From positions 34,361 through 98,360 of the IMG/VR virus record IMGVR_UViG_3300023174_000101: a stretch of 64,000 nt of DNA; one strand, 5' to 3'. Below the pieces are notes generated by a model, which was not told where the DNA came from, ran no database searches, and saw nothing but the letters and a program-made list of their open reading frames with translations. The translations under genes and the position numbers were made by a program. This DNA is from a virus. This document shows, in pieces, positions 13,999 to 63,798 of this stretch (the first letter of the stretch is position 1; each line of letters begins with the position of its first letter).

Positions 13999-14049
13999 TT
14001 GGCGCCTAGGGAGTCGAACCCTAGCTAACGGTACAAATACAGCCCGCCA
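13999..14049 (-). ncRNA. tRNA-like minihelix (acceptor stem + T-arm), element 1
   Basis: A perfect T-arm (TAGGG-TTCGACT-CCCTA) is followed by GGCGCCA, which pairs over five bases with TGGCG about 21 bases upstream. There is room for neither D-arm nor anticodon arm. It is the weakest of the minihelix set because the last two acceptor pairs mismatch. It lies between the UvsX-like gene and the next gene. Confidence 0.5.
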
Positions 14050-14061
14050 CGCCCACCTACT

Positions 14062-16309: not shown

Positions 16310-16459
16310 TTACTTAGAGAAATGAATTGTGAGAATGTCGCCGTCTTTAACTTCGATTGATTTGTCCAGCTCTAGGTTAAACTTTGTACCGTCCATACAG
16401 ACGATCAAAGCCTTTCCTTTAGCTGCTTTAATGACTTGTACTTTATCGCCGTTTTTCAT
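16310..16459 (-). CDS. Small beta-rich protein (49 aa) coupled to purZ
   Basis: MKNGDKVQVIKAAKGKALIVCMDGTKF... reads as a single five-strand beta barrel of SH3/OB size. The ATG overlaps the purZ stop codon, so its translation should be coupled to PurZ. The tight link could mean a PurZ- or SSB-related accessory, but nothing in the sequence proves it. Confidence 0.6.
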   Translation of the reverse strand: MKNGDKVQVIKAAKGKALIVCMDGTKFNLELDKSIEVKDGDILTIHFSK

Positions 16460-20900: not shown

Positions 20901-20972
20901 ATTCTTCCAGTAGTACCGCTTCTGTAGGACCTTCTTTGCGTTTGTGTTGATCTCAGGAAACTTTGAAGACAT
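17943..20972 (-). CDS. nrdJ: Class II (B12-type) ribonucleotide reductase with intein
   Basis: A 1009-residue precursor; the mature enzyme is about 646 residues. It reduces ribonucleotides to deoxyribonucleotides, feeding DNA and, with PurZ, Z synthesis. The N-terminal Cys is C94 (LAACYVLP). Finger-loop-like segments include GGGTGFNFGNIRERG and GGIRNGANMG. The active-site NPCGEQ carries the thiyl-radical Cys at C641, and C652 follows. The NPCGEQ form plus a C-terminal CPECNQ...CESCKSC cluster fits class II, so the host must supply cobalamin. The intein (278-640) splits N-P from C641. No separate small subunit is seen, which agrees with class II. Confidence 0.9.
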   Translation of the reverse strand: MSSKFPEINTNAKKVLQKRYYWKNPDGSFIESTPEELFERVAIFNSRAEFKFGTHEKSQEMHDRAYEMMRSLRWMPNTPTLANSGRDRGQLAACYVLPIQDSMEGIMDALKNQALVQKSGGGTGFNFGNIRERGALVKSTGHNAAGPIPIIKLMNYMMSEFITQGGIRNGANMGVLPDDHPDIEEFITFKHQDGSCASFNVSVAATDKFMNAVLNDLDWNLKSRADGKTVKTIKARQLFNHLVKSAWSTGDPGLLFIDAANRANPTPHVGHLSATNPCVTGETLIATENGLQPIVDIVRKNAAKKALSPSGELEDITQYIDSGVKKVYKVTTRRGYSVRATDNHRWPTEAGVKETRDLVIGDVVTLQPKMHREPVNQDNFSFGELVGWLIGDGYLSHMESKSRMAGIVVGGPDFAYVEHINGLIAKHVGVPATAHVREQFNTTQLLSSRIWTWAVKDLGIIPHKAGEKEVPACVNNASMDVAAGFLRGLFSADGHVVYDSHKGNYGVRLTSKSEALISGAQVLLSRFGIYCTKYDRSREPREELFKHTLPDGSVQKYGSDGRCYELSITGSAVGYFASEIGFTQDYKTEKLNNILINHKLRETSRLDEIVSIDFDGEEETFCLTIEPTHRMCANGITISNCGEQWLLPNEACTLGHHNLAMYVKTDVVSPNWEDRFDWRQYEEDIYWGVRFLDNVIELNHYATAEIEKMHRDTNRKIGLGVMGFADMLIMLGIPYASEKARVAAEKIASFHRKHADLASFKLGKERGSFGSFEGSEVQKEGWSAMRNACRTTVAPTGTTAMIAGCSTSIEPVFGLLLRREQAGMIMYESHPLFESWLNSLSESKRNSVYEYYFAHNSLMGCLDVPEDIQLLFAQANDVQHKDHVLMQAVWQKHIDNSISKTINLPNSATEDDVRHAYILAWQNGCKGITVYRDGCRSHQALSTQKKADTQPQTNEVPAAAEVAPVEENIVANYSDAGGQLCPECNQNTLEMGGGCESCKSCGFSVCHIS
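19053..20141 (-). mobile_element. LAGLIDADG intein in the reductase active site
   Basis: 363 residues (278-640 of the precursor). It starts CVTGETLIATENG and ends GITISN, followed by +1 Cys. Block B TDNH is present. Two LAGLIDADG motifs are visible: LVGWLIGDGYL (about 385-395) and AAGFLRGLFSADG (482-494), so it should encode an active homing endonuclease. The residue before the terminal Asn is Ser rather than the usual His, which could slow splicing. The insertion point is directly before the radical Cys, a common intein site in reductases. Confidence 0.92.
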
Positions 20973-52010: not shown

Positions 52011-52052
52011 GGTGCTACCTCCCTGTAAAAGCTGTGCGGCATGCACAGCCAA

Positions 52053-52102
52053 GCGGTGCGTCCGGATTCGAACCGGACGTACAGACCTCCTCAGTCGCAC
52101 CT
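52053..52102 (-). ncRNA. tRNA-like minihelix, element 2
   Basis: The acceptor AGGTGCG pairs over six bases with CGCACC(G). There are 18 bases of linker, then the perfect T-arm TCCGG-TTCGAAT-CCGGA. No D-arm or anticodon arm. It lies between the metallopeptidase/VWA gene and the CxxCxGxG gene. Confidence 0.72.
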
Positions 52103-52110
52103 TGCTTCAA

Positions 52111-53253
52111 TTACTGGGTCTCACACGGGATGAACGTCGAGCCAGGCGGCGGCTTCGTGTGCGGGTCCCGTGTAAAGCCTCCTACAATCAGATGCCTGAC
52201 TGAACTTGGCACCTGAGGCCAGCCATCACCAAAGAACTCGCAGTCGGTGAAGTGAACCATCGAGTCGAACTTCCCCTGTTCCCCGATATCAAGGTAAGCG
52301 GGTAGTGGGTCGGTTCCACCACTGAACTGCGTGGCGTCTTCCACCTTGCCAGTCGTGCGGTCAGTAACCCAAGACTTGTAGACTACCTCGGAAGTGTGTG
52401 CGTTGAGATAGCACTTCGTTCCGGGGTACGTCTTGAGCAGGGCCTTCACTTCCGATACGATCTTCTCGACCCATTCCTTCGACATGGAGCCTGAGACGTC
52501 AATCGAAATCGCCACCTTCGGTTCGTGGCCGACCCAGCCGGGGAACTGTGGACCCTCGGCAGGCGACCTCCTAGACTTGCGGGCAAACGTCTGGGAGTCT
52601 CGACCGGGACGTGCTGCAGCCTGCTGGAATCCAGAGCGCAGCACCTTCTTCCAGTCAATCTTAGGAGCGCGTGGGGCAAGCAGCCCTGCGAACCCCGCAG
52701 TTCCCTTCCCCGCCTGCTGCGACATTGCACGCGCTTCAATCGCGGTCTGCCGCCAATCTACGTCCGTGCCGTCGTCCAGCGTGCCGCATCCACCACCTGG
52801 GAGCGGAATCCCCTGTGGCTTCTCTGGTACTTGGTCCGGATTCTTCATCAGCCAATCGTACAGATTCTCTGAGAATAGATCCCCCTTGTAATCCGGAGGA
52901 GGGAATAGACCTCCAGGCGGGAGCGAGATTCCGTCTGTGCGGAGAGCGTTGTTAATGCACATGTCATTCGCAACGTTCCACACCCACTGGTCTCTCCCCT
53001 GCTGTCGGTCGTGGTGGCTGAGGATAAGGTGCAGCATCTCGTGGGCTAACACCCCCTTGAGATGCTCCTTGTCCATGTTCATCACGAAATCCGAATTGAC
53101 GTGGATTCTGCCAGACTTCGCAATCGCCATTGTCGGCTGTGCGTTGTCTTCCACGTACAAATTCGAGATTTTAGCGTGAATCAGGATGAAGTGAGGATAC
53201 TGGAATCCAAGTACCATCACCGCGTTCTTGCATTTCTCAATCGCTTTGCTCAT
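52111..53253 (-). CDS. Metallopeptidase-like/VWA protein (DUF2201 type)
   Basis: A 380-residue protein. The N-terminal half has HEMLHLILSHHDR (71-83), a HExxH zinc motif. The C-terminal half has a VWA metal site, DVSGSM, near 252-257 (IDVSGSMSKEW), and a second acidic loop. This DUF2201-like pairing usually works with a MoxR AAA ATPase, which is encoded two genes upstream here. The pair may remodel a phage or host complex, as CbbQ/CbbO do in bacteria. It overlaps the HNH gene by 17 bases. Confidence 0.85.
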   Translation of the reverse strand: MSKAIEKCKNAVMVLGFQYPHFILIHAKISNLYVEDNAQPTMAIAKSGRIHVNSDFVMNMDKEHLKGVLAHEMLHLILSHHDRQQGRDQWVWNVANDMCINNALRTDGISLPPGGLFPPPDYKGDLFSENLYDWLMKNPDQVPEKPQGIPLPGGGCGTLDDGTDVDWRQTAIEARAMSQQAGKGTAGFAGLLAPRAPKIDWKKVLRSGFQQAAARPGRDSQTFARKSRRSPAEGPQFPGWVGHEPKVAISIDVSGSMSKEWVEKIVSEVKALLKTYPGTKCYLNAHTSEVVYKSWVTDRTTGKVEDATQFSGGTDPLPAYLDIGEQGKFDSMVHFTDCEFFGDGWPQVPSSVRHLIVGGFTRDPHTKPPPGSTFIPCETQ

Positions 53254-53794
53254 TCGGCCTCCCTGTTGTTTGTATCCTTACTACTTGATTGCGCTTCTTG
53301 AACTGACAATTCATACAAAGCACCTGCAGGGGAGGGTCGTTAGGATATCCGTTCTTTCTAAGCCATGCATAAAACTGCAAGCCAGCTGATATGCCCAACT
53401 TCCTCCTGTGAGCAGCACCATCATCGTTTACATGGTCGAGCGACAAGCACCTTAAATCTGCCTCGCCGCATGAATTACATCTTGCACCACCATATTGCTC
53501 GAGTACATGCGTCTTTGACCTAATTCTGATGTCTATGTCGCGTCTGCAAAGCTTATCAGCGCATGCGGTACACCTGACAATTCCATCCTCGCGCTTCGCC
53601 TTGCAGCAATCAACGCACAAGTCGTTGGCCTTTGCCTTCTCCATCAAGGCGGCTTTCCTCTTGTCAACCTTAATCGAACAGTCGACGCAGGTAAATGTGC
53701 CTTCGCGTGGCTCACGAACTCCACACTTAACACATTTACCTGCGTCCTTGCGCCTGTAATACCTATCCTTGAACCACTTGTTTTTGTCGAACAT
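53237..53794 (-). CDS. HNH-type endonuclease with zinc ribbons (185 aa)
   Basis: Multiple zinc pairs (CVKCG...C.DC, CVDCC...CTAC, CNSCG) precede an HNH core (LSLDHVNDDGAAHRR ... LCMNCQFKKRNQ). Placed between the MoxR ATPase and its VWA partner, it looks like a homing endonuclease that landed inside an operon. The frame is intact, so it may be active. Confidence 0.8.
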   Translation of the reverse strand: MFDKNKWFKDRYYRRKDAGKCVKCGVREPREGTFTCVDCSIKVDKRKAALMEKAKANDLCVDCCKAKREDGIVRCTACADKLCRRDIDIRIRSKTHVLEQYGGARCNSCGEADLRCLSLDHVNDDGAAHRRKLGISAGLQFYAWLRKNGYPNDPPLQVLCMNCQFKKRNQVVRIQTTGRPNEQSD

Positions 53795-53832
53795 GCCACG
53801 ACTATAGAAGTCGGGGATGCGACGTGAACGGG

Positions 53833-55011
53833 TCAGCTCCTCATCGCATTCCCAATTCCACGCAGAAGCTCGGTCTGCGCCTTATCGGCCTCCGCGTACC
53901 ACTTGCTCGACTTGTGCTTCTTGATCCCGAAGTCGGGGCGACCAAGCACGTTCAGTGCGGCGACCCGAATCTCACGGTCCTGAATGCGGTTGCTGTAGAC
54001 CCAGGCGGGGCAGGGGTCCTCAGCTGCTACCTGGCCGATGATTCCAAGCACCGCGATGCCGACGTTGATGTTCGCAGGGATCTTGGCCGTGTCGGGGGAG
54101 GCGATAATCTCTCGAACTCCCGGCAGCTGGTGTCGAATCTTGCGAATCGCCATGTAAGCTGCGGCGGGCTGGTCTCCCACGTTGCCTGCCAGACCCGCCA
54201 TGAACACGGGACTGGTGTCAGGCTCGCCAGAGAGGAGAGCCTCGGCAACGAATTCCACCGCACGCTGCCACGAGCGTGGCGCACCCCACGGCTTGCCCTC
54301 TGCCTGGGTGCCAGGCGGCGGCTCAAGCTGCAGCAGGTCGGGCGAGGACTCGAGCGTGGCTGCAAAGTCAATCGCAACCCGACGCTTCATCGCATCAGCC
54401 TGCATCTCGCGGTGGGCCTTCACGACCTCCGGATTCTGCTTATCCTCGTCGCTCAACTCGGGGACTTCACTCGGGTCGATGCCGAACCGATAGAAGTAAT
54501 CCTGAATCTCTGCTCGGGTGGGCATCATCTCAATGTGGGTCATGCGGCCAATCAGGGGAAGTGCCAATTCCCACCCACCCGCAGCTTGGTGACTGGGGTT
54601 GGATGCTGCTACGATGCGACTGCCGGGGTGGAGCTTCCTATCACCAGCCCGACGAGCGTAGATGAGCTGCATGCTCGCACCCTGCACCGCAGGAGGCGTG
54701 CAGGACAATTCATCCAGGAAGAGGAGCACGGGCTCGTTGCATGCCCGCTTGATGGCACCAAGCGGCAGGCGGTCGAGTCCTCCGTTCGACACGACAGGGA
54801 AACCGCCGATATCGGTCGGGTCACACTGCGAGAGGAGCAGAGTCTCAACCGGCATGCCGGTCTCCTCTCCGATTCCCTCAATGATGGCCGACTTGCCAAC
54901 TCCCGGAGGACCGACCAGGTGAATGGGCGTGTTCGACCGAAGTGAGTAGGACAGCGCCTTCTTGCAGTCCGTGAGAGAAAGGCGATTGATGGACAAAGAC
55001 GGATTGGACAT
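53833..55011 (-). CDS. MoxR-family AAA+ ATPase
   Basis: A 392-residue AAA+ protein. Walker A is GPPGVGKS (34-41), Walker B is LLFLDELS (D100, E101), and sensor-like Asn is in AASNPS. MoxR ATPases act as chaperones for VWA-domain partners, and the partner gene is just downstream. It is the first gene after the tandem sigma-54-like promoters P11 and P12. The target in the phage life cycle is unknown. Confidence 0.88.
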   Translation of the reverse strand: MSNPSLSINRLSLTDCKKALSYSLRSNTPIHLVGPPGVGKSAIIEGIGEETGMPVETLLLSQCDPTDIGGFPVVSNGGLDRLPLGAIKRACNEPVLLFLDELSCTPPAVQGASMQLIYARRAGDRKLHPGSRIVAASNPSHQAAGGWELALPLIGRMTHIEMMPTRAEIQDYFYRFGIDPSEVPELSDEDKQNPEVVKAHREMQADAMKRRVAIDFAATLESSPDLLQLEPPPGTQAEGKPWGAPRSWQRAVEFVAEALLSGEPDTSPVFMAGLAGNVGDQPAAAYMAIRKIRHQLPGVREIIASPDTAKIPANINVGIAVLGIIGQVAAEDPCPAWVYSNRIQDREIRVAALNVLGRPDFGIKKHKSSKWYAEADKAQTELLRGIGNAMRS

Positions 55012-55078
55012 AAATTCCTTGGTTTAGTGTGAGACTGCGGGGTTGGGGGTTTGACTGCGGGGACTGCCGCCAGAAAAA

Positions 55079-55093
55079 GCAAGGGCCGTGCCA
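55079..55093 (-). promoter_or_regulatory. Sigma-54-like promoter P11
   Basis: The minus strand reads TGGCACGGCCCTTGC followed by a T-run; the match to TGGCACG-N4-TTGC is complete. The predicted start near 55067 is 56 bases before the MoxR gene. It forms a tandem pair with P12; 9-bp arms GGGCCGTGC/GCACGGCCC link the two. Confidence 0.78.
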
Positions 55094-55127
55094 GCTCTAC
55101 TACACTCTCCCACCGTCTTCGGCGGGT

Positions 55128-55142
55128 GCACGGCCCGTGCCA
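55128..55142 (-). promoter_or_regulatory. Sigma-54-like promoter P12
   Basis: The minus strand reads TGGCACGGGCCGTGC followed by ACCCGCC. GG-N10-GC spacing. It lies just after the GGFAG gene and 49 bases upstream of P11. Confidence 0.65.
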
Positions 55143-55150
55143 GTCCAGGC

Positions 55151-56122
55151 TTACTCTTCACTGTTACCATCATACTCATCGTTCGGCAACTGCATCTGCT
55201 CTGCATCTGCGGGTCGCATCTTGTCGAGGTACTCGTCAAGGCTCATGCCCGCGAATCCTCCACCATCATTGTACTTCTTGATGGCTGCTGCAACCCAGTC
55301 TGGAGCCCAATACTCAATGGACTTCGGGCGGGCAACAACACCAACATCTGCTTTCAGAACCCTTCCAATTCCGCGAATATGCGTGATGTTGACGTAGCCT
55401 GCTTCCCGCACGTCCTTAGATGTGGATTCTGCCTGGCACGTGCGGCTCGATTTGTGGCGTGAGAGGCTGTGGTGCGGAATCCACCTTCCACACTTCTCAC
55501 ACATTGCATTCGACACGATACGCTCGAACTTGATCGCTCCATACGGTAGACTCTGCTCTCTCACGAACGTGGCGATGTATTCACTAATCTTGCCCGTTGT
55601 CTTGAGTGTCGACAGCGCGACCTCATTTATCTCGAGCGCTTGCGTGTACATGTCCGCGAGCGAGTAAAAGTACTCAATCGGAGAGCCAGGCGGATTGAAC
55701 GGTCGGCCCATGAACTTAGCGCCACCTTGATACATACTTGCCGCGCTCATGTCGAACATTAGCGCCTTGGATTTATGTGTCCTATACTCTGCATAAGCTA
55801 CGAACTGTACTGGCAGATGCTTCTTCAAGATTATGTGGATTGGCACTACTGCATACTTAATCCACGACCTTCGTCCAACCTCACCAAGTGGGAGCGACAA
55901 CTCAACGTTCTCATTGGAGAGGATTTGGCCGTAGCCTCCCCAATTGGATGCGTGAAGGAAATGGGTGTCAAACTCCGGTGTGTCACTGCCAAACGACTCC
56001 AAAGCGGAGACTGCCTCACCTGCTAGGCGTTCAATGTCTGTGGTATGATTCTCGATGAAACGCGCAACCTCGTCACGGTCGAACGTCTCATATCTGTCGT
56101 ACTCGTACTTGATTTTGCTCAT
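55151..56122 (-). CDS. GGFAG-tail family protein with C2HC finger (323 aa)
   Basis: The C2HC finger (CEKCGRWIPHHSLSRHKSSRTC, about 222-243) and the C-terminal module (YWAPDWVAAAIKKYNDGGGFAGMSLDEYLDKM) are as in the 279- and 306-residue members. An acidic tail follows (ADAEQMQLPNDEYDGNSEE). The N-terminal 200 residues include HASNWGGYG and FVAYAEYRTHKSKALMFDMSAAS. Function unknown; it is the longest member of the family. Confidence 0.75.
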   Translation of the reverse strand: MSKIKYEYDRYETFDRDEVARFIENHTTDIERLAGEAVSALESFGSDTPEFDTHFLHASNWGGYGQILSNENVELSLPLGEVGRRSWIKYAVVPIHIILKKHLPVQFVAYAEYRTHKSKALMFDMSAASMYQGGAKFMGRPFNPPGSPIEYFYSLADMYTQALEINEVALSTLKTTGKISEYIATFVREQSLPYGAIKFERIVSNAMCEKCGRWIPHHSLSRHKSSRTCQAESTSKDVREAGYVNITHIRGIGRVLKADVGVVARPKSIEYWAPDWVAAAIKKYNDGGGFAGMSLDEYLDKMRPADAEQMQLPNDEYDGNSEE

Positions 56123-56134
56123 GCTACCTCCCTG

Positions 56135-56485
56135 TTAGTACTTGTCGTATGGGTCCCACAGCCTATCACAAACGTCGTAATCCGGAGGGTCCTCGGCAGA
56201 GGTGTCATAATCGTCATCCCTGCTGCTTGCCGATTCATTGATTGCTTCGAGAACCTCGGCCTCAATCCAATTCATCTCTTTCTCGGTGATGTCCTTTAGA
56301 GCGGAGATGGTACGATCACCGTCCTCGTCCAGGTACCAAACCCCGGTGATTTCGAACTCGGGTCCCTCGCCGGGGTCGTCATCCTCCGGATACTTGCCAC
56401 GGCGGGCAGGATAACCGTAACTGTGAACCTTGTAATCAACGTCAACTTCAACTTCCGCATCACCGCGAACAATCATCGTCTTCAT
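56135..56485 (-). CDS. Very acidic protein (116 aa)
   Basis: MKTMIVRGDAEVEVDVDYKVHSYGYPARRGKYPEDDDPGEG... is a beta-rich acidic domain with a C-terminal DDDYDTSAEDPPDYD run. The ATG overlaps the upstream stop (TGATG) after AGGT. Such acidity suggests a DNA mimic or a regulator of a basic protein, as an inference only. Confidence 0.62.
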   Translation of the reverse strand: MKTMIVRGDAEVEVDVDYKVHSYGYPARRGKYPEDDDPGEGPEFEITGVWYLDEDGDRTISALKDITEKEMNWIEAEVLEAINESASSRDDDYDTSAEDPPDYDVCDRLWDPYDKY

Positions 56486-56988
56486 CACTTACCTCCCTTG
56501 TATGCGCCGCTTGAGCGCACGCGATTGTACTTCTGAGCGTACCAATCCAGGTCCACCAGCCTTGCAACCTCAACCAGAGTGGAGTCGAACGTGGCTTGAA
56601 CCGCCACGGCCCGTGCCTTCACTCTTTCCACAAAGCTCTTCTTGGCGTGCTCTGCATAATCGGAGTCATCATATGCAAGCAGAGCATCGAGCGTGACTTC
56701 GATGTCTCGCACACGAGAAACAGACAAGAGCCGCACGAAATTCCCGAACTGGCGAGTGACCGAGCCACGTTCGCTCTCTATACGAGCGACCGACTTCTCC
56801 TCAACGCCCAATAGCCTTGCCCATTCATACTGGGAGAATCCCAGTCCAAGGCGAAGTGTGCGAGATAGAGCCTTCATGTCTCGTGCCGTGAACGCAGGCT
56901 CGATGGCCTTGTCTCCGATTCTTTTCGCCCGAACCAAAACTGCTGGCTCGTCAATGACTAACTTCTTAGCCACAGGCTTCTCATTCAT
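56485..56988 (-). CDS. XRE-type transcription regulator (167 aa)
   Basis: Residues about 37-95 form an XRE helix-turn-helix (DMKALSRTLRLGLGFSQYEWARLLGVEEKSVARIESERGSV). The N-terminal arm is basic and the C-terminal part helical. It follows sigma-54-like promoter P13, with a leader of about 61 bases. It probably represses or tunes phage genes. Confidence 0.8.
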   Translation of the reverse strand: MNEKPVAKKLVIDEPAVLVRAKRIGDKAIEPAFTARDMKALSRTLRLGLGFSQYEWARLLGVEEKSVARIESERGSVTRQFGNFVRLLSVSRVRDIEVTLDALLAYDDSDYAEHAKKSFVERVKARAVAVQATFDSTLVEVARLVDLDWYAQKYNRVRSSGAYKGGK

Positions 56989-57060
56989 TGCTACCTCTTT
57001 GGGTTGGGGGTTGAGGGGTCCGGTGTGGGGGCCTTGCCCGCGCCACACACAGAAAAGGGT

Positions 57061-57075
57061 GCAAGCGGCGTGCCA
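57061..57075 (-). promoter_or_regulatory. Sigma-54-like promoter P13
   Basis: The minus strand reads TGGCACGCCGCTTGC followed by ACCC; the match to TGGCACG-N4-TTGC is complete. The predicted start is near 57049. An 8-bp inverted repeat GCAAGCGG/CCGCTTGC overlaps it. Confidence 0.78.
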
Positions 57076-57110
57076 CTTAGGGCTCCGCTTGCGGGGGACA
57101 ACGTTTGATT

Positions 57111-57347
57111 CTACTTCAACAGGCCGTTCGCCCTGAGCAGGGTTTCATACTGCTCGAGCAGCTTCTTCTTGTCCTTGACCGGTGCAATGCCTGCGTTCAT
57201 CAGCACGCCCTTAATCATCGGCACCACTGACCCGTGCTTTGAGTGCTTCATTCCGGTAAATGCCTCAAGCTTCAAGGCGGTGCGCATCACCAACAAATTC
57301 CACGCCGGAATCTGCTCAGCAGAGATTTCAATCATTTTGTCTTGCAT
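57111..57347 (-). CDS. Small helical phage protein (78 aa)
   Basis: MQDKMIEISAEQIPAWNLLVMRTALKLEAFTGMKHSKHGSVVPMIKG... has the R.ALKLE..TGMKHS..GSV.P.IK pattern of short phage proteins. GAGGA precedes the ATG at 57347; a TTG two codons earlier overlaps the upstream stop. Function unknown. Confidence 0.68.
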   Translation of the reverse strand: MQDKMIEISAEQIPAWNLLVMRTALKLEAFTGMKHSKHGSVVPMIKGVLMNAGIAPVKDKKKLLEQYETLLRANGLLK

Positions 57348-57349
57348 AG

Positions 57350-57445
57350 TCAAGTCCTCAAGATACCACGGATAAGAGTAACTGCCGCACCAAGGAACGG
57401 AACCGCCATCATCACCGCAACCACTTCATCCATACAGAAATGCAT
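57350..57445 (-). CDS. Tiny membrane peptide (31 aa)
   Basis: MHFCMDEVVAVMMAVPFLGAAVTLIRGILRT is one hydrophobic helix with a basic end. Its TGA overlaps the TTG/ATG start region of the next gene. The size and packing match the membrane peptide at 36321-36413. Confidence 0.45.
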   Translation of the reverse strand: MHFCMDEVVAVMMAVPFLGAAVTLIRGILRT

Positions 57446-57449
57446 GTCG

Positions 57450-57656
57450 CTACTCCATCACTTTCTTGGCTGTGGGAGCCACAGCCTTGACCAAAAGCTT
57501 CTTCTCGCATTCGACTCTGTGTCTGTTGCCCGCAGCGTACGCTTCATTCCATGTACCAAACTTCGCCCACTTTCCACTTGTTGGCTCATCCGGGACGACC
57601 CAGAATCCTCCATCTGATTGCATGATGCAATACCAATATGAGACGTCATCTATCAT
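57450..57656 (-). CDS. Hypothetical protein (68 aa)
   Basis: MIDDVSYWYCIMQSDGGFWVVPDEPTSGKWAKFGTWNEAYAAGNRHR... is a small beta-sheet domain with a WNEAYAAGNRHR helix. This unit is common in small phage proteins. Function unknown. Confidence 0.62.
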   Translation of the reverse strand: MIDDVSYWYCIMQSDGGFWVVPDEPTSGKWAKFGTWNEAYAAGNRHRVECEKKLLVKAVAPTAKKVME

Positions 57657-57665
57657 AGTTCCTCC

Positions 57666-57878
57666 TCAAGGCATTTCAACTACGATCATCACCTTGCCAA
57701 GCTGGATTTCGATGTATTCATCCTCGTCCAGCTTCGCCTCTTCCTCGTCAGTCAGTTCAACGTTGTACAGGCCGTCAAGCTCAGACACAACCTCATACTC
57801 CCTGTGCTGTGCAACGTTCACATCCATGTCTGCAACGACAGCAGGCACACCACCGACAAAACACTGTGCGTAGTACAT
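57666..57878 (-). CDS. Small acidic beta protein (70 aa)
   Basis: MYYAQCFVGGVPAVVADMDVNVAQHREYEVVSELDGLY... has short strands and an acidic loop (DEEEAKLDEDEY). No family recognised. Confidence 0.6.
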   Translation of the reverse strand: MYYAQCFVGGVPAVVADMDVNVAQHREYEVVSELDGLYNVELTDEEEAKLDEDEYIEIQLGKVMIVVEMP

Positions 57879-57902
57879 TGCGTACCTCCCTGTCTGCTGC
57901 GT

Positions 57903-58118
57903 TTAGAAAATCGTGGACTGAATCTCCCGGCGCTGCTCATCCAGGAGTCCCGCAATCTCTGCCATAACACCGATTGCTTGCTTCTCGTCCTTAGCGCCTT
58001 CACGCTCTAGAATCTTGGCGATCTCATCATCCTGCATTGCCTCCACCACGAAGTCCCATCCGCCCTCTTCGTAATGAGCAAGAGCGTGTGCCTTGACCTT
58101 CTCTACAAGCTCATTCAT
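57903..58118 (-). CDS. Small helical protein (71 aa)
   Basis: MNELVEKVKAHALAHYEEGGWDFVVEAMQDDEIAKIL... is helical; EEGGWDFVVEAMQDDEIAKIL is a compact unit that recurs in small phage proteins. It overlaps the upstream gene by 4 bases. Function unknown. Confidence 0.66.
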   Translation of the reverse strand: MNELVEKVKAHALAHYEEGGWDFVVEAMQDDEIAKILEREGAKDEKQAIGVMAEIAGLLDEQRREIQSTIF

Positions 58119-58399
58119 TGTTGCTCTCCTTTCCTCTTTGTGGGGAATGGCGACCAGTATTCCGGGTCGTTTTCGTCCATCTGCAGTACAAGCGTCTCAA
58201 CCGGCAAGCCCTTCTCCTTGGCGATCTGCAGAATCCGCTCCGAACGGAGATAGCTCGTCGGAACGAAGTGCTCGCACTTGCCCTCTTTGTCTGGGGCAAA
58301 GCTTGCGTACGACTGACGTTGAGACGGCGTGGCCTGGAATCTGTAGCAGTAGGTGCTGGCCTTGCACCCACTGTTCCTGCACATCGAAATGTCTGGCAT
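58115..58399 (-). CDS. Cys-rich phage protein (94 aa)
   Basis: MPDISMCRNSGCKASTYCYRFQATPSQRQSYASFAPDKEGKCEHF shows the C.N..C.....C.R....P....Q....F.....G.C.HF layout of a small phage family; the cysteines likely bind zinc. Function unknown. Confidence 0.74.
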   Translation of the reverse strand: MPDISMCRNSGCKASTYCYRFQATPSQRQSYASFAPDKEGKCEHFVPTSYLRSERILQIAKEKGLPVETLVLQMDENDPEYWSPFPTKRKGEQQ

Positions 58400-58401
58400 G
58401 T

Positions 58402-58608
58402 CTACTTCTTCCTTTCTGCCTCCAAAGCCTGGAGGTCTGGGTGAAGGGGCACCGGCTCGTGAGACAAGCTAGTGACCCGATGAAGCGAGTACTCCAAAAT
58501 TCCCTGCCAAAGGACCTTGGCAATTGAGCCCAGTGGCGAGTCCTCAACCGAGACTACAACACCTGGCCCCTTAAACAGGGGATGGAAAACTATTGAGCCT
58601 GCTTGCAT
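58402..58608 (-). CDS. Small beta-barrel protein (68 aa)
   Basis: MQAGSIVFHPLFKGPGVVVSVEDSPLGSIAKVLWQG... has the GSIVFHP.FG.G.VV.V..... pattern of a small SH3/KOW-like or CarD/Tudor-type barrel. A nucleic-acid or transcription link is possible. Function unknown. Confidence 0.62.
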   Translation of the reverse strand: MQAGSIVFHPLFKGPGVVVSVEDSPLGSIAKVLWQGILEYSLHRVTSLSHEPVPLHPDLQALEAERKK

Positions 58609-58664
58609 GACTACCTCCCTGTGGCGGGCACGAACCGGGATTGGCTCATGCACACTATACGAAG

Positions 58665-58689
58665 GGGGAGGATACGACGCCTCCTCCCC
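58665..58689 (-). terminator. Intergenic hairpin
   Basis: GGGGAGG and CCTCCCC form a 7-bp stem in the gap between 58609 and 58703. No U-tract follows, so it may mark an RNA end or a processing site. Confidence 0.4.
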
Positions 58690-58703
58690 TGGGCGTTACT
58701 GCA

Positions 58704-59165
58704 CTACAGGCGGTTCGGCTTCAGCAGGTTGTACTCAACTTCGGGGATGCAGGCCTTGACCTCAGCTTCAGTCAAGGCTCCGTTTGCAACGAGAATCTTG
58801 AGCGCTGCCTCGTTGACGCTGTACGAAATCTTCGGCGTCATGTACACGTTCAACTCCAGACCCTTCGACTCAAGTAGGGCCTGAACCAACTTGGCATCGG
58901 GCCCGAGCTTGCGGGGTCGAGCCAGGACTTCGAACTCGCCCACGTTCAGCTTCAGCGAGTTGCCGTCCTGTTCGCCGTCATTCTTGACCAACTCCATCAC
59001 CCGCTCACGGGCGACCTTCACCACCTCTCCGATTCCGCCCTCGACGACTTTCAGATTGTCGAATACTTCAACCAGCTCCTCGTTGGTCAAGCGCGGGTCC
59101 TGCAGGGTGCGGCTAGCAGAGGAAAGGTAGTCAGCTCCACTGTGAATCATTCCGATCAAACTCAT
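58704..59165 (-). CDS. Hypothetical protein (153 aa)
   Basis: AAGGAG precedes the ATG at 59165. A helical N-terminus (MSLIGMIHSGADYLSSAS) is followed by a mixed domain with ESKGLELNVYMTPKISYSV and a C-terminal helix (TEAEVKACIPEVEYNLLKPNRL). No family recognised. Confidence 0.64.
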   Translation of the reverse strand: MSLIGMIHSGADYLSSASRTLQDPRLTNEELVEVFDNLKVVEGGIGEVVKVARERVMELVKNDGEQDGNSLKLNVGEFEVLARPRKLGPDAKLVQALLESKGLELNVYMTPKISYSVNEAALKILVANGALTEAEVKACIPEVEYNLLKPNRL

Positions 59166-59191
59166 TTTCACTCCTTGGTGTTGGGGTTGTA

Positions 59192-59518
59192 CTACTTCGC
59201 TGCGAAAATCATGATGTTGCTTTCATCTACCACAATCTGCTCGCCGCAGATGTTTACCTTGCTCTCGCCCTCGCCAGGCGTGAGAACCAAGCGCACGGGC
59301 AGCGTGTATGTCTCTCCACGGTGCACCACGGTCAGCTTCTCCGGGTCTGACGACCCAGAGTAAAAGTCCTCAATCGGCACTTCCATGTCGATGGAGGAGA
59401 TGTCACCTTGGGAGAAAGACCAGCCAGTGTCGGTCTCCTCGTAGGAGAATTCCTTCACCCGCTTGCCGTCCACCCACAACTTCATACCACGGCCAACGAT
59501 GATTTCAATTAGATTCAT
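59192..59518 (-). CDS. Beta-sheet protein, paralogue of the gene at 62875-63228
   Basis: MNLIEIIVGRGMKLWVDGKRVKEFSYEETDTGWSF ... SDPEKLTVVHRG ... VNICGEQIVVDES aligns element by element with the 117-residue protein at 62875-63228 (VGRSIQVRVDGAPIQLGNVTEETNGWRF ... NPDELIIESNG ... VFLHGNQVTIGGDE). Two diverged copies of an all-beta domain. Function unknown. Confidence 0.68.
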   Translation of the reverse strand: MNLIEIIVGRGMKLWVDGKRVKEFSYEETDTGWSFSQGDISSIDMEVPIEDFYSGSSDPEKLTVVHRGETYTLPVRLVLTPGEGESKVNICGEQIVVDESNIMIFAAK

Positions 59519-59612
59519 GACTACCTCCCTGAGAGGGTGCCCGACATGAGTGCCGGGGAGACGCCTCCCCAATCAACACAAGTGCTTGAACTTGGATGCG
59601 GATTGGGGAGAC

Positions 59613-59636
59613 GTACAGCGGCCTAACCCGCTGTAC
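59613..59636 (-). repeat. 9-bp hairpin
   Basis: GTACAGCGG and CCGCTGTAC with a six-base loop, in the leader between two genes. A second hairpin (GGGGAG/CTCCCC, 59555-59570) and a third (59650-59681) lie nearby. Confidence 0.6.
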
Positions 59637-59649
59637 ACTCCCTACTACA

Positions 59650-59681
59650 GGAGGGGTGGTGGCCGAACCCACCACCCCTCC
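59650..59681 (-). terminator. 13-bp hairpin after the KFTTP paralogue B gene
   Basis: GGAGGGGTGGTGG pairs perfectly with CCACCACCCCTCC, 14 bases after the stop at 59695. The stem is long and stable but lacks a U-tract, so it may block exonucleases or stop transcription with a protein. Confidence 0.6.
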
Positions 59682-59694
59682 TCACCACACTGCA

Positions 59695-60288
59695 TCAGCC
59701 CTCGGCCTCAACCTCGGTCTTGGCCGAGACCTCGATGCCCTTCTCCGCCGCCACCTGGCGGATCTTGGCGAGGCGGGCCTTCAGCGCATCGGCTGCCTTG
59801 GCCTTGCGCTGCTCCTCGGCTGCGGCCTTCTGCGCCTCCTGCTGAGCCTTGCGGGCCTCAGCGGCCTGCGCCTTCTCCGCCTCCTTCTTGGCCTTCTCGG
59901 CCTCGCGCACCTTCAGCAGGACCTCGTTCGCCTCCTGCTTCATGGCGCGGACCTCGTCGCTGTCCGTGTCGAGGATCTTCATCAGACCCTGGACGGAGGA
60001 GCCGCCACCGGAGGAGGACTTGCTGCCTCCGCCAGACCCGCCCTTCTTCTTGGCGTGCGTGCGGCACTTGCCGCACTGGTGCCAATCCGAGACCTCACGG
60101 ACGTGGAGCTCGGTGCACCCAGGCTCGGTGCACGTCAGCTCCGCCTGGGGCTTGCCCCGGACGGAGGGCTCAGCGAGGACGACACCCAACGCGCCGGTCG
60201 GGGTGGTGAACTTCACGCCCGCCGCCTCGGTGAGGGACTTCTTCGCTGCGGCCTTGGCGTCGTTCATCTCAACGGTGTTGGTGTTCAT
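59695..60288 (-). CDS. KFTTP/DWHQC paralogue B (197 aa)
   Basis: KFTTPTGALGVVLAE ... ELTCTEPGCTELHVREVSDWHQCGKC resembles the 164-residue protein at 38215-38709, here with an extra CGKC that completes a zinc site. A Gly/Ser linker and a long Ala/Glu/Lys helix (EAEKAKKEAEKAQAAEARKA) follow. It is behind two tandem sigma-54-like promoters (P14, P15). Function unknown. Confidence 0.75.
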   Translation of the reverse strand: MNTNTVEMNDAKAAAKKSLTEAAGVKFTTPTGALGVVLAEPSVRGKPQAELTCTEPGCTELHVREVSDWHQCGKCRTHAKKKGGSGGGSKSSSGGGSSVQGLMKILDTDSDEVRAMKQEANEVLLKVREAEKAKKEAEKAQAAEARKAQQEAQKAAAEEQRKAKAADALKARLAKIRQVAAEKGIEVSAKTEVEAEG

Positions 60289-60437
60289 ATTGCTGTACTT
60301 CTCCTGCTAACCGGACGAAATTGTCCGGTTTCTCCCTGCCTCTTTGGGTCAGGGAAATCTTCGGCAGCACCGCTACTGCCTATTGAGGGCCAAGGACTCG
60401 AACCTTGCCGCGCGCCGCCTGACAAATTCTCTTTTCT

Positions 60438-60452
60438 GCAGAGCGCGTGCCA
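60438..60452 (-). promoter_or_regulatory. Sigma-54-like promoter P14
   Basis: The minus strand reads TGGCACGCGCTCTGC followed by AGAAAAG. GG-N10-GC spacing. The predicted start near 60426 leaves a leader of about 138 bases before 60288. Confidence 0.66.
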
Positions 60453-60497
60453 GAAACCCTCCACCCTTCATCGCCCGCCGCGCCGCCCGCGAGTGAA

Positions 60498-60512
60498 GCA
60501 AGCGGCGTGCCA
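60498..60512 (-). promoter_or_regulatory. Sigma-54-like promoter P15
   Basis: The minus strand reads TGGCACGCCGCTTGC followed by TTCAC; the match to TGGCACG-N4-TTGC is complete, preceded by an AGCGCC element as at P8. It lies 60 bases upstream of P14. Confidence 0.75.
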
Positions 60513-60524
60513 GGCGCTCAGCGC

Positions 60525-60764
60525 CTAGAAACCATAGACGTCTGAGTAGTCGTAATCCCCCTCCTCGATTGCACGCCTCTTCCATTCGGGGACACCATCA
60601 TCCGGCTCGATGTCCTCGTCTGCCTCGTAGCTGGGGTTGTTGAGGACCTCAGGCCGATACTTCGCCAGCTTCTCATCCTTGCAGTTCGAACAGACCCTAC
60701 AGAGCGGGATGCCCTTGGCGTCATGTACCCAGTACGAGTTCTGCTTCGTGTGCTCACAGCTCAT
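60525..60764 (-). CDS. Zinc-binding acidic protein (79 aa)
   Basis: MSCEHTKQNSYWVHDAKGIPLCRVCSNCKDEKLAKYRPEVL... has C3, H5 and C22/C25/C28 for zinc; the tail is acidic (DEDIEPDDGVPEW). HDAKGIPLCRVCSNCKDEKLAKYRPEVL resembles small phage zinc proteins. The start overlaps the upstream stop. Confidence 0.68.
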   Translation of the reverse strand: MSCEHTKQNSYWVHDAKGIPLCRVCSNCKDEKLAKYRPEVLNNPSYEADEDIEPDDGVPEWKRRAIEEGDYDYSDVYGF

Positions 60765-61138
60765 GCGTCCTCCTTCTCTGTGTCGAACTTCAACGTCTCA
60801 ACCAGCCCCTCATATGAGGGGCCTGTGTGCTTGTGGTTCCCGGTCCTGTCTTCCAGGAACTTCTTCCACTCGTGCTTCACGATGTTGCCACCCTCGGTGG
60901 TGAGGTACTCCAGCAGTTTCTCCGCAGTGTACGTGTTGACCCCAAGGTGGGCATCGATCCCACCACCGTGGAACACGTGCAGCACCCTCCACTCGTCCTG
61001 CTCGGTTGATGCAAGCACGATGCAGCCCTGCGATTTGTAGTCCGAATCGCCCGCACTGAACACCACGCGCCCATCATACTTCTTGCCGATCTCTTCAATC
61101 TGCCCCTTGCTGAGGAACGGAATCTCTCCCGAAATCAT
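60761..61138 (-). CDS. Hypothetical protein (125 aa)
   Basis: MISGEIPFLSKGQIEEIGKKYDGRVVFSAGDSDYKSQGCIVL... is alpha/beta, with HVFHGGGIDAHLG in the middle. No family recognised. Coupled by overlap to both neighbours. Confidence 0.62.
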   Translation of the reverse strand: MISGEIPFLSKGQIEEIGKKYDGRVVFSAGDSDYKSQGCIVLASTEQDEWRVLHVFHGGGIDAHLGVNTYTAEKLLEYLTTEGGNIVKHEWKKFLEDRTGNHKHTGPSYEGLVETLKFDTEKEDA

Positions 61139-61314
61139 TACTTCCCCTCCTGGTAAATGAAACGGTGCAGGCCCTTCGGGGTCTTGACGACCACCCCACC
61201 CTGCGGCAGGATGTCAACCCACTCCACCACCAGCCCATTCTTCTGGGCCAGCTCGTCCATGACGCCGTTGTTCAGCGCATTGAAGATGTGCAGCGACAGC
61301 TTGGACACGTCCAT
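61138..61314 (-). CDS. Small hypothetical protein (58 aa)
   Basis: Starts MDVSKLSLHIFNALNNGVMDELAQKNGLVVEWVDILPQGG; a helix then a beta hairpin. It follows tRNA-like minihelix element 3. A longer frame runs back through the minihelix and is not favoured. Confidence 0.58.
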   Translation of the reverse strand: MDVSKLSLHIFNALNNGVMDELAQKNGLVVEWVDILPQGGVVVKTPKGLHRFIYQEGK

Positions 61315-61342
61315 TGTATTACCTCCCTGTGGTTGAACTACA

Positions 61343-61392
61343 TGGGCGTGAGGGGAATCGAACCCCGTGCTCATCCTACATCTATCACGCCT
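61343..61392 (-). ncRNA. tRNA-like minihelix, element 3
   Basis: AGGCGTG pairs over six bases with CACGCC(C). Linker ATAGATGTAGGATGAGCA is 18 bases; then the T-arm GGGG-TTCGATT-CCCC. No D-arm or anticodon arm. The linker is nearly the same in element 4. Confidence 0.76.
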
Positions 61393-61434
61393 ACCCCTCA
61401 CTTCACCTCTATCACGCCTACCCCTCACTTCACC
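61381..61434. repeat. 27-bp tandem duplication
   Basis: Two perfect copies of 27 bases (61381-61407, 61408-61434). One copy holds the 5' acceptor strand of element 3; the other overlaps the stop codon of the gene at 61425-61736. Confidence 0.9.
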
Positions 61435-61736
61435 TCTTCACCGAACTTGTTCGGCTCGTACACAACCCACTCCTCACACCTCCAGAACGCCCACATGTCG
61501 AGGATGTTCCGGTGGCGGAACCAGACCAGCTTCCGGTTGTCTTGCTCCACGGGCTTGCCATCCAGCGGCACAATGAAGCGAACGCTTGTGGGGTCTTCGG
61601 GCCTGTCCGACACCAGCGCACCTCCCGCGTACGGGGCGGAGTAGACTTCACCACCGTAGCTCCTGCCCATGGTGGCGAATTCGTTCACCACGTCCCCCCA
61701 CTTGTACAGCTCCCTGTCCAGATTGAAGTAAAACAT
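61425..61736 (-). CDS. Hypothetical protein (103 aa)
   Basis: AAAGGAG six bases before the ATG supports the start at 61736. MFYFNLDRELYKWGDVVNEFATMGRSYGGEVYSAPYAGG... is beta-rich and aromatic-rich (KLVWFRHRNILDMWAFWRCEEWVVYE). The last codons are part of the 27-base duplication. No family recognised. Confidence 0.62.
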   Translation of the reverse strand: MFYFNLDRELYKWGDVVNEFATMGRSYGGEVYSAPYAGGALVSDRPEDPTSVRFIVPLDGKPVEQDNRKLVWFRHRNILDMWAFWRCEEWVVYEPNKFGEEVK

Positions 61737-61766
61737 GCACGCTCCTTTCATACCGGTTTAACTACA

Positions 61767-61817
61767 TGGGCACGAGGGGCATCGAACCCCGTACACATCC
61801 TACATCCTATCGTGCCT
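61767..61817 (-). ncRNA. tRNA-like minihelix, element 4
   Basis: AGGCACG pairs over six bases with CGTGCC(C). Linker of 19 bases (ATAGGATGTAGGATGTGTA) and T-arm GGGG-TTCGATG-CCCC. No D-arm or anticodon arm. It lies just after the kinase gene. Confidence 0.75.
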
Positions 61818-61824
61818 GCCTTCC

Positions 61825-62262
61825 CTACTGAGTCACCACACGGTGCTGCCACCAGGGCATCAGCTGTGCCTCAACCAGCCGCTTGTGCATCGCCAGCACC
61901 CCTCCCTCCGGCACCCCGTGGATGTTCCGCGCTGCCGCCACCTTCGGGTCGCACTCCAGCGTTACCACTTCCAGCTCACACCCAAACGCCAGGGCAATCG
62001 CCGCGTACGGGGCGATCTCCACCGCCGTAGTATTGGTGTTGTCCACCACCACGGTGTCGTCCAGGTATCCCAACATCACGTGCCCCATGTACTCCCTCAG
62101 GCATGCTGCGTGTGCGTTTGGGAGATTGGTCGGGTTAAACTTGTACTCCCCGTCCACCATGAAGAATTTATCCGCCGAGACAACCTTCGCCTCGGGCAGA
62201 TTCTTCGCCACATACGTGGACTTCCCAGAACCCGGAACACCGCGCAGAACCACAACGTTCAT
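61825..62262 (-). CDS. P-loop kinase, polynucleotide 5'-kinase-like
   Basis: A 145-residue single-domain kinase. Walker A is GVPGSGKST (8-16), then SADKFF, and a NTNTTAVEI / PKVAAARNIHG core seen in T4 polynucleotide kinase 5'-kinase domains and their phage relatives. It probably phosphorylates 5' ends of RNA or DNA, for example in tRNA or DNA repair. The 3' phosphatase domain of T4 Pnkp is absent. No RNA ligase is seen in the window. Confidence 0.78.
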   Translation of the reverse strand: MNVVVLRGVPGSGKSTYVAKNLPEAKVVSADKFFMVDGEYKFNPTNLPNAHAACLREYMGHVMLGYLDDTVVVDNTNTTAVEIAPYAAIALAFGCELEVVTLECDPKVAAARNIHGVPEGGVLAMHKRLVEAQLMPWWQHRVVTQ

Positions 62263-62500
62263 ACATCACCATCCTTGTGTATCGTGGGTGGCTTAATACC
62301 ACCTGAGGACCCTCAATCCTTACCTTGATGGAGTACCCTCAGCTGGCATCCAGCTCCCTATCCTACCTTCACGTACAACCTTCTCAAGATGGTCACGCCA
62401 GCAAGCCGGGGCCGGGACCCCTCAATACTCCTACATCTATCGGTCCAGACCCCCTCCCGCCTTGAAGCCCGCCTTATGTAGTATGCGGACTTTCATAGTA
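62263..62500 (-). other. Non-coding gap with hairpins
   Basis: No convincing gene; a 19-codon frame (MKVRILHKAGFKAGGG) starts in it. Short hairpins are visible (GGTGG/CCACC near 62290, AGCTGG/CCAGCT near 62350). GATAGATGTAGGA near 62430, as in minihelices 3 and 4, is followed by a degenerate T-arm (GGGG-TCCCGG-CCCC), a possible decayed minihelix. Confidence 0.4.
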
Positions 62501-62608
62501 TCACCAGCACCAACATCCTTCCTTCCACATGTTAATGATTGCTCGGAGGAGTACATTTTCCTTCCGGAGCCTTTCATTCTCACTCTTCAGCCGATCAATC
62601 TCTTCCAT
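62501..62608 (-). CDS. Leucine-zipper-like small protein (35 aa)
   Basis: GGAGG precedes the ATG at 62608. MEEIDRLKSENERLRKENVLLRAIINMWKEGCWCW is one coiled coil with a C-terminal CWCW. A DNA-binding or dimerising peptide is possible. Confidence 0.5.
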   Translation of the reverse strand: MEEIDRLKSENERLRKENVLLRAIINMWKEGCWCW

Positions 62609-62874
62609 GACTACCTCCATCTGTACTACGGGTTAAAGTCGTGTCCGGGGAGGCCAATCACCACAAAAAGGGGACCTCAACCCGCAAAAAGTTCAAGGCG
62701 AGCATGTATAGGGAATTCCCCATACGTATGCCATTCACGCCTGGTTAAGCTACCAAAACGATTCCGAACATCAAGGCGGACGCGGCCAGCACAGGAAATC
62801 CGCGACAATCTGCAAAAACCATGCTGGCCGTGCCTTAATCTTACCCCCTAACCTGGATTCCTAACCTGGGCCCA
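62609..62874. other. Non-coding gap
   Basis: No gene is seen. It has an imperfect palindrome around GGGAATTCCC (62706-62726) and a partial sigma-54-like core (AGGCACGGCCAGCATGG) that fails the GC spacing. Confidence 0.5.
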
Positions 62875-63228
62875 TTACCCTAGCTTGAGCTTATTATCTG
62901 GGCTACCCTGCCCATGGGCACTGATGAGGGTCTCATCCCCACCGATGGTCACTTGATTCCCATGTAGGAAAACACACACGGTCCCATTGGGGGAGAATAC
63001 CACGTCCACAACCAGGTGGTGTGTGCCCCCATTGGATTCGATTATCAACTCGTCGGGATTATCGCCCTCGAAGAACTCGAGGACGGTGAATGGTAGACAA
63101 ACATGAGAGACCGTGGGGTTGTCGAATCTCCATCCATTGGTCTCTTCGGTGACGTTACCTAGCTGGATGGGGGCTCCATCCACCCGTACTTGGATGGAAC
63201 GTCCTACAATCATTGCGAATGACTTCAT
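62875..63228 (-). CDS. Beta-sheet protein, paralogue of the gene at 59192-59518
   Basis: MKSFAMIVGRSIQVRVDGAPIQLGNVTEETNGWRF... is an all-beta domain that matches its paralogue along its whole length, including the C-terminal NQVTIGGDETLISA. Function unknown. Confidence 0.68.
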   Translation of the reverse strand: MKSFAMIVGRSIQVRVDGAPIQLGNVTEETNGWRFDNPTVSHVCLPFTVLEFFEGDNPDELIIESNGGTHHLVVDVVFSPNGTVCVFLHGNQVTIGGDETLISAHGQGSPDNKLKLG

Positions 63229-63255
63229 TTTGTATTACCTCCTTGCGATACAACA

Positions 63256-63313
63256 TGGGCACGCCGGGAGTCGAACCGGAATTCACTAGGGATGAAGCCC
63301 ACCTAGCGTGCCT
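63256..63313 (-). ncRNA. tRNA-like minihelix with an extra arm, element 5
   Basis: AGGCACG pairs over six bases with CGTGCC(C). The linker is 27 bases and can form a stem CTAGG/CCTAG around GGGCTTCATCCC, like an anticodon arm; the D-arm is absent. The T-loop is TTCGACT with a CCGG/CCGG stem. It resembles a D-armless tRNA. Confidence 0.65.
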
Positions 63314-63321
63314 AATACTAC

Positions 63322-63717
63322 TTACTTCGGGGGAACCACGTACAGGGAAACCCCATGTCCCTGGGGGTAAGCATCCCCTGGGTCTCGATGTAGGAGCTTG
63401 GGTGGCCTCCCATCGAATGCAACAACTACACCCTCGGGGTGCTCAACCTCCAGAAACCGGTACTTCTCCCCAAGCTCGATGGTCTTGTCCACCTCGAGCT
63501 GGATGGGCTGGTCACACACCGAGAGGGTCTTCTTGCCCTCGTAATGCGTGGACAATTCGTCCGGGTCCATGTCCACCACCCGCGCCCAGCCGTGGATGGC
63601 CTGGAGGAGGGTGGGGGCTCGGACGAGGACGATTCCGCCGTCCCCATTGGGGAACTGATGGAGGTCCTCAATCATCTGCACCTCACGGTCGAAGAACACC
63701 TTCAGATATTCTGCCAT
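63322..63717 (-). CDS. Hypothetical protein (131 aa)
   Basis: Starts MAEYLKVFFDREVQMIEDLHQFPNGDGGIVLVRAPTLLQAIHGWARVV; alpha/beta with a central HGWARVVDMDPDEL. No family recognised. The longer frame to 63780 would cross minihelix element 6. Confidence 0.6.
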   Translation of the reverse strand: MAEYLKVFFDREVQMIEDLHQFPNGDGGIVLVRAPTLLQAIHGWARVVDMDPDELSTHYEGKKTLSVCDQPIQLEVDKTIELGEKYRFLEVEHPEGVVVAFDGRPPKLLHRDPGDAYPQGHGVSLYVVPPK

Positions 63718-63754
63718 TCTTGCCTCTGTGTAACACCGGACGGGATGTCCGGAT

Positions 63755-63798
63755 TGGGCGGGTGGGGATTCGAACCCCAAACATCTCCAGACCCGCCT
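63755..63798 (-). ncRNA. tRNA-like minihelix, element 6
   Basis: AGGCGGG pairs over six bases with CCCGCC(C). The linker is only 12 bases (TCTGGAGATGTT); T-arm TGGGG-TTCGAAT-CCCCA. This is the most compact of the set. Confidence 0.74.

Follow-up and report, generated by a model that had tools for sequence, protein, structure and literature searches.

Anticodon-less tRNA-like minihelices between the genes of a tailed phage and their possible role as processing marks

The 64,000-nucleotide stretch analyzed here (the window) comprises bases 34361-98360 of a 98,360-base pair (bp) virus record, IMGVR_UViG_3300023174_000101, and carries between its genes a family of small elements that consist of the acceptor stem and T-arm of a transfer RNA (tRNA) joined by a short linker. 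We propose that these elements are anticodon-less tRNA mimics that serve as cis-acting processing marks in polycistronic phage messages, where they would be cut by host RNase Z and/or RNase P, and we assign this reading a probability of about 0.68. The evidence comprises the structure and covariation of the elements, their confinement to spacers on the sense strand, their spacing from stop and start codons, and a hairpin that often follows them.

Structure and placement of the minihelices in the window

A structure-only scan of the window, in which a T-arm, six acceptor pairs, and a linker of 5 to 34 nucleotides (nt) were required, returned exactly five elements outside tRNAs (E1 to E5), all on the minus (gene) strand and none on the opposite strand, compared to 0.05 expected by chance per window (200 dinucleotide shuffles, maximum of 1). 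The initial annotation had described these five minihelices, each with a 5' strand, a linker, a T-arm, and a 3' strand paired over 6 bp, and the scan confirmed every one. E1 (52053..52102, minus strand) reads AGGTGCG-18 nt-TCCGG TTCGAAT CCGGA-CGCACCG with the acceptor GGTGCG/CGCACC, and it scores 57.4 bits with R1, a covariance model that we built from the five elements and that also detects the other four. E2 (61343..61392, minus) reads AGGCGTG-18 nt-(C)GGGG TTCGATT CCCC(T)-CACGCCC with the acceptor GGCGTG(A)/(T)CACGCC, and E3 (61767..61817, minus) reads AGGCACG-19 nt-(C)GGGG TTCGATG CCCC(T)-CGTGCCC with the acceptor GGCACG(A)/(T)CGTGCC. E4 (63256..63313, minus) reads AGGCACG-26 nt-TCCGG TTCGACT CCCGG-CGTGCCC with the acceptor GGCACG(C)/(G)CGTGCC and has a single C.C mismatch in its T-stem. 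E5 (63755..63798, minus) reads AGGCGGG-12 nt-TGGGG TTCGAAT CCCCA-CCCGCCC with the acceptor GGCGGG/CCCGCC, and it additionally gives a sub-threshold match to the mascRNA model of Rfam. Thus, each element has six acceptor pairs, a TTCGANN T-loop, a linker of 12 to 26 nt, and a helix of 11 to 12 layers. The D-arm is absent from all five, as had been noted initially, and so is the anticodon arm except perhaps in E4, whose 26-nt linker contains a possible anticodon-like hairpin. The A described as lying opposite the last base is A1, which faces C72 in E2 to E5 and G72 in E1. Base 8 is able to pair with base 65 in E2 to E5, so that the helix can also be read as 7 + 4 pairs; when the 1.72 mismatch is counted the helix has 12 layers and is as long as the acceptor/T helix of a tRNA.

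When E1 to E5 were aligned, 94.5% of the pair cells were paired and none of 500 shuffles did as well. Both sides had changed in eight cells, with covariation in three acceptor pairs (pairs 3-5 of the aligned helix) and two T-stem pairs, and sliding the partner strand by one to three columns lowered the pairing to 38-58%. Single-sequence folding energies were mildly better than those of shuffles (z of about -0.1 to -2) and were not used as evidence. The acceptor stem and the T-arm with its TTCRANN loop are those of a canonical tRNA (RF00005). Neither ARAGORN nor the RF00005 model picked up E1 to E5 as canonical tRNAs; only seven ordinary tRNAs were found. Attachment-site fragments, i.e., 3' tRNA halves, were rejected as the identity of the elements because all five carry a matching 5' acceptor strand.

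The covariance-model search of the rest of the genome that the initial annotation had suggested was carried out with R1 and yielded a sixth element in the contig, E6 (13999..14056, minus; 20.9 bits, E = 0.024), and no further convincing match. E6 has a perfect T-arm (TAGGG-TTCGACT-CCCTA) and a 5-bp acceptor with two possible registers. Although listed initially as the weaker candidate, it is probably real on the basis of the R1 match, a sub-threshold mascRNA-like match, and its occurrence at the same position in a spacer. A possible seventh element, E7 (60383..60465, minus), is uncertain; it combines the T-arm CAAGG-TTCGAGT-CCTTG with a 6-bp acceptor and a 48-nt linker. The 5' strand of E2 is repeated in tandem just upstream (61378-61431; 27 nt, perfect but for one position), and the E2 3' strand could pair with either copy. 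The core of the E2 linker, GATAGATGTAGGA, recurs at 62429 in what is likely a dead copy (62400..62470, minus) whose T-loop and 3' acceptor strand are gone; this remnant lies within a 612-nt stretch without a called gene (62262-62875) that also contains other GC-rich hairpins. E2 and E3 share 88% identity over 52 nt; this similarity and the GATAGATGTAGGA remnant at 62429 show that the family has recently been duplicating and losing copies.

All of the window elements sit in spacers between genes on the sense strand, in agreement with the initial annotation and according to approximate gene calls that we made from codon usage and a Shine-Dalgarno score; the minus strand carries almost all of the called genes and all seven tRNAs. 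The distances from the stop codon to the start of E1, E3, E4, E5, and E6 are 8, 7, 8, 5, and 5 nt, respectively. E2 starts 32 nt past the stop codon, 27 of which are the tandem duplication of its own 5' strand. From the element end to the next ATG the distances are 42, 28, 30, 27, 37, and 43 nt for E1 to E6, respectively. Three ordinary tRNAs of the source phage similarly begin 7, 0, and 8 nt past stop codons. A hairpin starts 2 nt past the element in E1, E5, and E7 (three of seven, compared to 16% in shuffles). The hairpin after E1 (52030..52050, minus) is GGCTGTGC-atgcc-GCACAGCT, that after E5 (63736..63752, minus) is CCGGAC-atccc-GTCCGG, and that after E7 occupies 60380-60363 (minus).

The same architecture in other phages

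Outside the source phage we searched by architecture rather than by sequence, using pattern scans of IMG/VR followed by BLAST. Most of the 65 stretches from the first pattern scan were discarded as 3' halves of real tRNAs or as chance matches; one in an unrelated GC-rich phage (L040) was convincing, with an element 8 nt past a stop codon and ahead of the ribosome-binding site of the next gene, again with A1.C72. A further contig, L088, has three minihelix-like units in a row that share a GACGGT-type linker (6883-7230, minus); the units lie among short GC-rich repeats immediately ahead of a gene. Similarity to L088 led to Gordonia phage MakoManhole, which has three spacer copies. BLAST with a 42-mer of MakoManhole gave matches in Gordonia, Mycobacterium, and Streptomyces phages. 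BLAST with a second type, from Mycobacterium phage Konstantine, matched 159 phage records at 703 places, with 80% or more of the query covered in 141 of them; 113 records belong to Streptomyces phages and 28 to Mycobacterium phages. Almost all of the near-full-length matches listed lie in unannotated DNA; the lowest-ranked half-length matches include true tRNAs.

In Gordonia phage VanLee, one 11-kb gene block has a minihelix in 15 of its 16 spacers of 60-200 nt, including one with a tandemly duplicated linker (L216), comparable to the duplication of the E2 5' strand. The published announcement of the VanLee genome, for which tRNAscan-SE and ARAGORN were used, reports one tRNA and no minihelix element (PMC8320454). 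The corresponding proportions are 7 of 9 spacers in Sujidade, 10 of 15 in Papyrus, 5 of 6 in Morgana, 7 of 15 in Konstantine, and 1 of 5 in MakoManhole. When these six phages were pooled, the spacers (11.0 kb) contained 51 matches and the coding sequence (89.8 kb) contained 4, with none on the opposite strand, and 36 of the 51 spacer copies started 2-15 nt past a stop codon. No Rfam family covered the minihelices when the phage stretches were searched.

Pair counts were restricted to copies of equal length because MAFFT misplaces the 5' strand when linkers differ, and one match (L211:14779) was omitted from the alignments as likely due to chance. A set of 13 equal-length actinophage copies from eight loci came from the same scan as the 35 copies described next, although most of its phages had initially been detected through their similarity in sequence to one element. 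In this set all 143 of 143 pair cells were formed. In 35 of these cells both sides differed from the commonest pair, compared to 9.0 in shuffles (0 of 500 reached this number), and pairing fell to 41-65% in controls with slid partners. Across 35 actinophage copies, the T-stem was paired in 172 of 175 cells versus 117 after shuffling. Nearly all copies of this set leave position 7.66 unpaired, have a TTCRANN T-loop, and carry GG a few bases into the linker, and the linkers recall a D-loop; the acceptor and T-stem sequences vary freely, with most copies keeping G1-C72. A stem of at least five pairs begins within 8 nt of the element 3' end in 40 of 58 actinophage copies, compared to 12% in shuffles, and this stem is kept while its sequence changes from copy to copy. 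A covariance model of the actinophage minihelices (R2) describes traits that the window elements share, namely the acceptor/T helix of 11-12 layers, the TTCRANN loop, the lack of an anticodon arm, and the location in a sense-strand spacer just past a stop codon, and R1 in turn gave weak matches in Endor1 (E = 4e-4) and Konstantine (E = 0.003). The covariation that the initial annotation had expected in relatives was thus present in actinophages and among the paralogues of the contig. No relative near enough to the source phage was found by nucleotide search or with the primase-helicase, the first gene of the contig, the ribonucleotide reductase, and the E2/E3 sequence as queries; a distant relative, the jumbo phage Rctr197k, has many tRNAs and no convincing minihelix.

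Two other features were seen in these sequences. In other phage contigs, L144:2907-2965 (plus) and L201:3624-3682 (minus) are tRNA-like units with a D-arm, an acceptor, and a T-arm that leave no room for an anticodon arm; they are possible intermediates between tRNA and minihelix. The minihelix-rich Mycobacterium phage Papyrus also encodes a GOLLD RNA (L227:16838-17297, plus; RF02032, 190 bits).

Proposed processing marks and competing explanations

The initial annotation had proposed that the elements punctuate mRNA (messenger RNA) for processing. To this proposal our analysis adds the confinement to sense-strand spacers in unrelated phages, the retained parts of a tRNA, and the downstream hairpin, from which we infer transcription across the spacers, cleavage by RNase P and/or RNase Z, and a benefit to the phage. 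An acceptor stem stacked on a T-arm (11-12 layers) with a standard T-loop would present the part of a pre-tRNA that both enzymes measure. Host RNase Z would cut just past the acceptor and host RNase P just ahead of it; the upstream mRNA would thereby be released with an end a few nucleotides past its own stop codon. The downstream mRNA would acquire a 5' end about 27-50 nt ahead of its start codon, and in actinophages this end would usually be capped by a hairpin. The excised piece lacks an anticodon and cannot decode, and therefore many marks are possible without disturbing translation. A hairpin a few nucleotides from a 5'-monophosphate end slows 5'-dependent decay by RNase E/J, and after a cut at the 3' end of the element the downstream mRNA would begin with the observed hairpin.

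Comparable processing is known from three settings. Escherichia coli RNase P cuts model hairpins made of an acceptor and a T-arm at the correct site, with the 12-bp helix as a ruler (PMC11143913). The tRNA mimic mascRNA has a reduced D part and lacks a conserved anticodon loop; it is a substrate of both RNase P and RNase Z, which cut by way of an elbow formed by two conserved Gs and the T-loop (PMC11693755). The t-elements of plant mitochondria are tRNA-like units at mRNA ends that are used for end formation, with CCA added and no aminoacylation (PMC11658184). Because these systems show such processing, cis-acting punctuation is the simplest account of the phage elements, and by analogy to mascRNA the near-invariant GG of the actinophage linker could form an elbow with the T-loop. 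Of the two enzymes, RNase Z can be proposed with more confidence, as the elements do not encode CCA. Cutting by RNase P is plausible for the actinophage copies with G1-C72 and less sure for the window copies with A1.C72.

This difference bears on the rival that survives best, although we regard it as unlikely: the elements may remain attached to the upstream mRNA and mark or protect its 3' end, either through a 3' cut by RNase Z only or with no cut, as a cap like viral tRNA-like structures. Most elements lie only 5-15 nt past stop codons, the A1.C72 of the window copies is unfavorable for RNase P, and an RNase Z-type cut at the 3' end alone would also account for the downstream hairpin. Against a role confined to the 3' end, most of the actinophage copies keep G1-C72 and the elbow-like GG, which suit RNase P as well.

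Four observations weigh against the processing marks that we favor. Most spacers of similar length in the source phage have no element. In the window, A1 faces C72 or G72, which is a poor start for RNase P. Acceptor pairing was a requirement of the scan, and its frequency in the 35 scanned actinophage copies partly reflects that selection. Finally, R2 matches the window copies only in the T-arm part and not over their full length; common origin of the window and actinophage elements is therefore unproven, and it is equally likely that tRNA genes in different phages converged on the same form.

An origin from tRNAs is in itself likely, and one could suppose that the elements are simply decaying tRNA genes, stripped of their D- and anticodon arms and drifting away. 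Phages gain and lose tRNAs, the tRNA-like units of L144 and L201 retain a D-arm and lack an anticodon arm, a dead copy lies near 62429, and the actinophage linkers resemble a D-loop. We nevertheless consider decay improbable, given that compensatory change keeps the pairing across many copies, that the copies have multiplied at fixed distances from stop codons, and that no tRNA gene was found in the stretches examined of Konstantine, Papyrus, Sujidade, and MakoManhole; lack of function is not likely. The chances are slimmer still that the elements are free small RNAs acting in trans, for instance as decoys for host proteins that bind or cut tRNAs. A tRNA-like shape without an anticodon and several copies per genome would suit such a role, yet a trans-acting RNA has no need to occupy almost all spacers of a gene block or to keep a fixed distance from stop and start codons, and the sequences of acceptor and T-stem are free to vary. 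It is very improbable that the elements are antitermination or transcription-control RNAs that load onto RNA polymerase and resemble tRNA incidentally, since the repeated minihelix and hairpin between genes do recall the layout of repeated antitermination sites but that model gives no reason for the TTCRANN loop, G53-C61, or the length of 11-12 bp, all of which are constraints of tRNA.

The source phage, known systems, and implications

The source virus is a tailed phage, with genes for a DnaG/DnaB-type primase-helicase, a UvsX-like recombinase, a ribonucleotide reductase, and a baseplate wedge. Its contig is probably a fragment because neither a terminase nor a capsid protein was present among the contig proteins scanned. 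On the upstream side of E1, positions 52111-53253 and 53833-55011 (minus) encode a DUF2201 metallopeptidase/VWA-like protein beside an ATPase gene (phrog_1297). The ribonucleotide reductase (17943-20972, minus) is of class II (B12-dependent) and has an apparent intein, as intein-bearing proteins match approximately residues 260-550. An adenylosuccinate synthetase-like protein (16459-17637, minus) also matches PurZ (NF038379, E = 1.5e-54, under the curated cut-off) and is 31-38% identical to phage diaminopurine synthetases, and a separate window open reading frame matches adenylosuccinate lyase; judged from these two reading frames, the phage may synthesize 2-aminoadenine DNA.

The best Rfam resemblance of E5, E6, and the VanLee copies is to the mascRNA-menRNA model (RF01684), with scores of 17.0 bits for E5, 14.6 bits for E6, and 26.8 bits for the best VanLee copy, all below the gathering threshold of 42.5 bits. 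Like the phage elements, mascRNA/menRNA is a small tRNA mimic with an acceptor, a T-arm, a reduced D part, and two elbow Gs, and RNase P and RNase Z release mascRNA, which is not aminoacylated, from a longer transcript (PMC11693755). It differs in being a single copy that ends a vertebrate noncoding RNA and in having an anticodon-like arm, whereas the phage elements are many, lie between protein genes, and mostly lack that arm. Mitochondrial tRNA punctuation and plant t-elements share with the phage elements a tRNA-like unit between genes on the sense strand. The t-elements, however, are organellar, have predicted structures typical of tRNA-like units, and are cleaved (PMC11658184), while the phage units are stripped minihelices that would be cleaved in a like manner. 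RNase P model substrates and external guide sequences have the same minimal architecture of acceptor and T-arm (PMC11143913), but the model substrates are laboratory constructs with CCA, in contrast to natural phage elements without CCA and with a single-stranded linker. M3 RNA and the C4 antisense RNA of P1/P7, both named in the same paper (PMC11143913), are likewise phage transcripts that serve as RNase P substrates; they are single RNAs with functions of their own, unlike a repeated intergenic family.

Splitting of messages at tRNAs is already known in mitochondria, as is a stripped tRNA mimic in vertebrate long noncoding RNAs. The elements described here form a repeated, anticodon-less intergenic family in phages; within the open-access literature, we found no earlier report of such a family between genes of bacteria or their viruses. 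We lean somewhat toward the broader view that many tailed phages of different hosts use a dedicated family of anticodon-less tRNA mimics to punctuate blocks of small genes, with host RNase P/RNase Z splitting the messages and a companion hairpin capping each new 5' end, a family that would have been missed because tRNA finders expect a full tRNA. If this is true, well over 100 sequenced phage records would contain an unannotated RNA feature, and the regular spacers of approximately 95 nt in small-gene blocks would be explained. The elements would also offer natural minimal substrates for RNase P and RNase Z, and bacterial viruses would possess a counterpart of mitochondrial tRNA punctuation.

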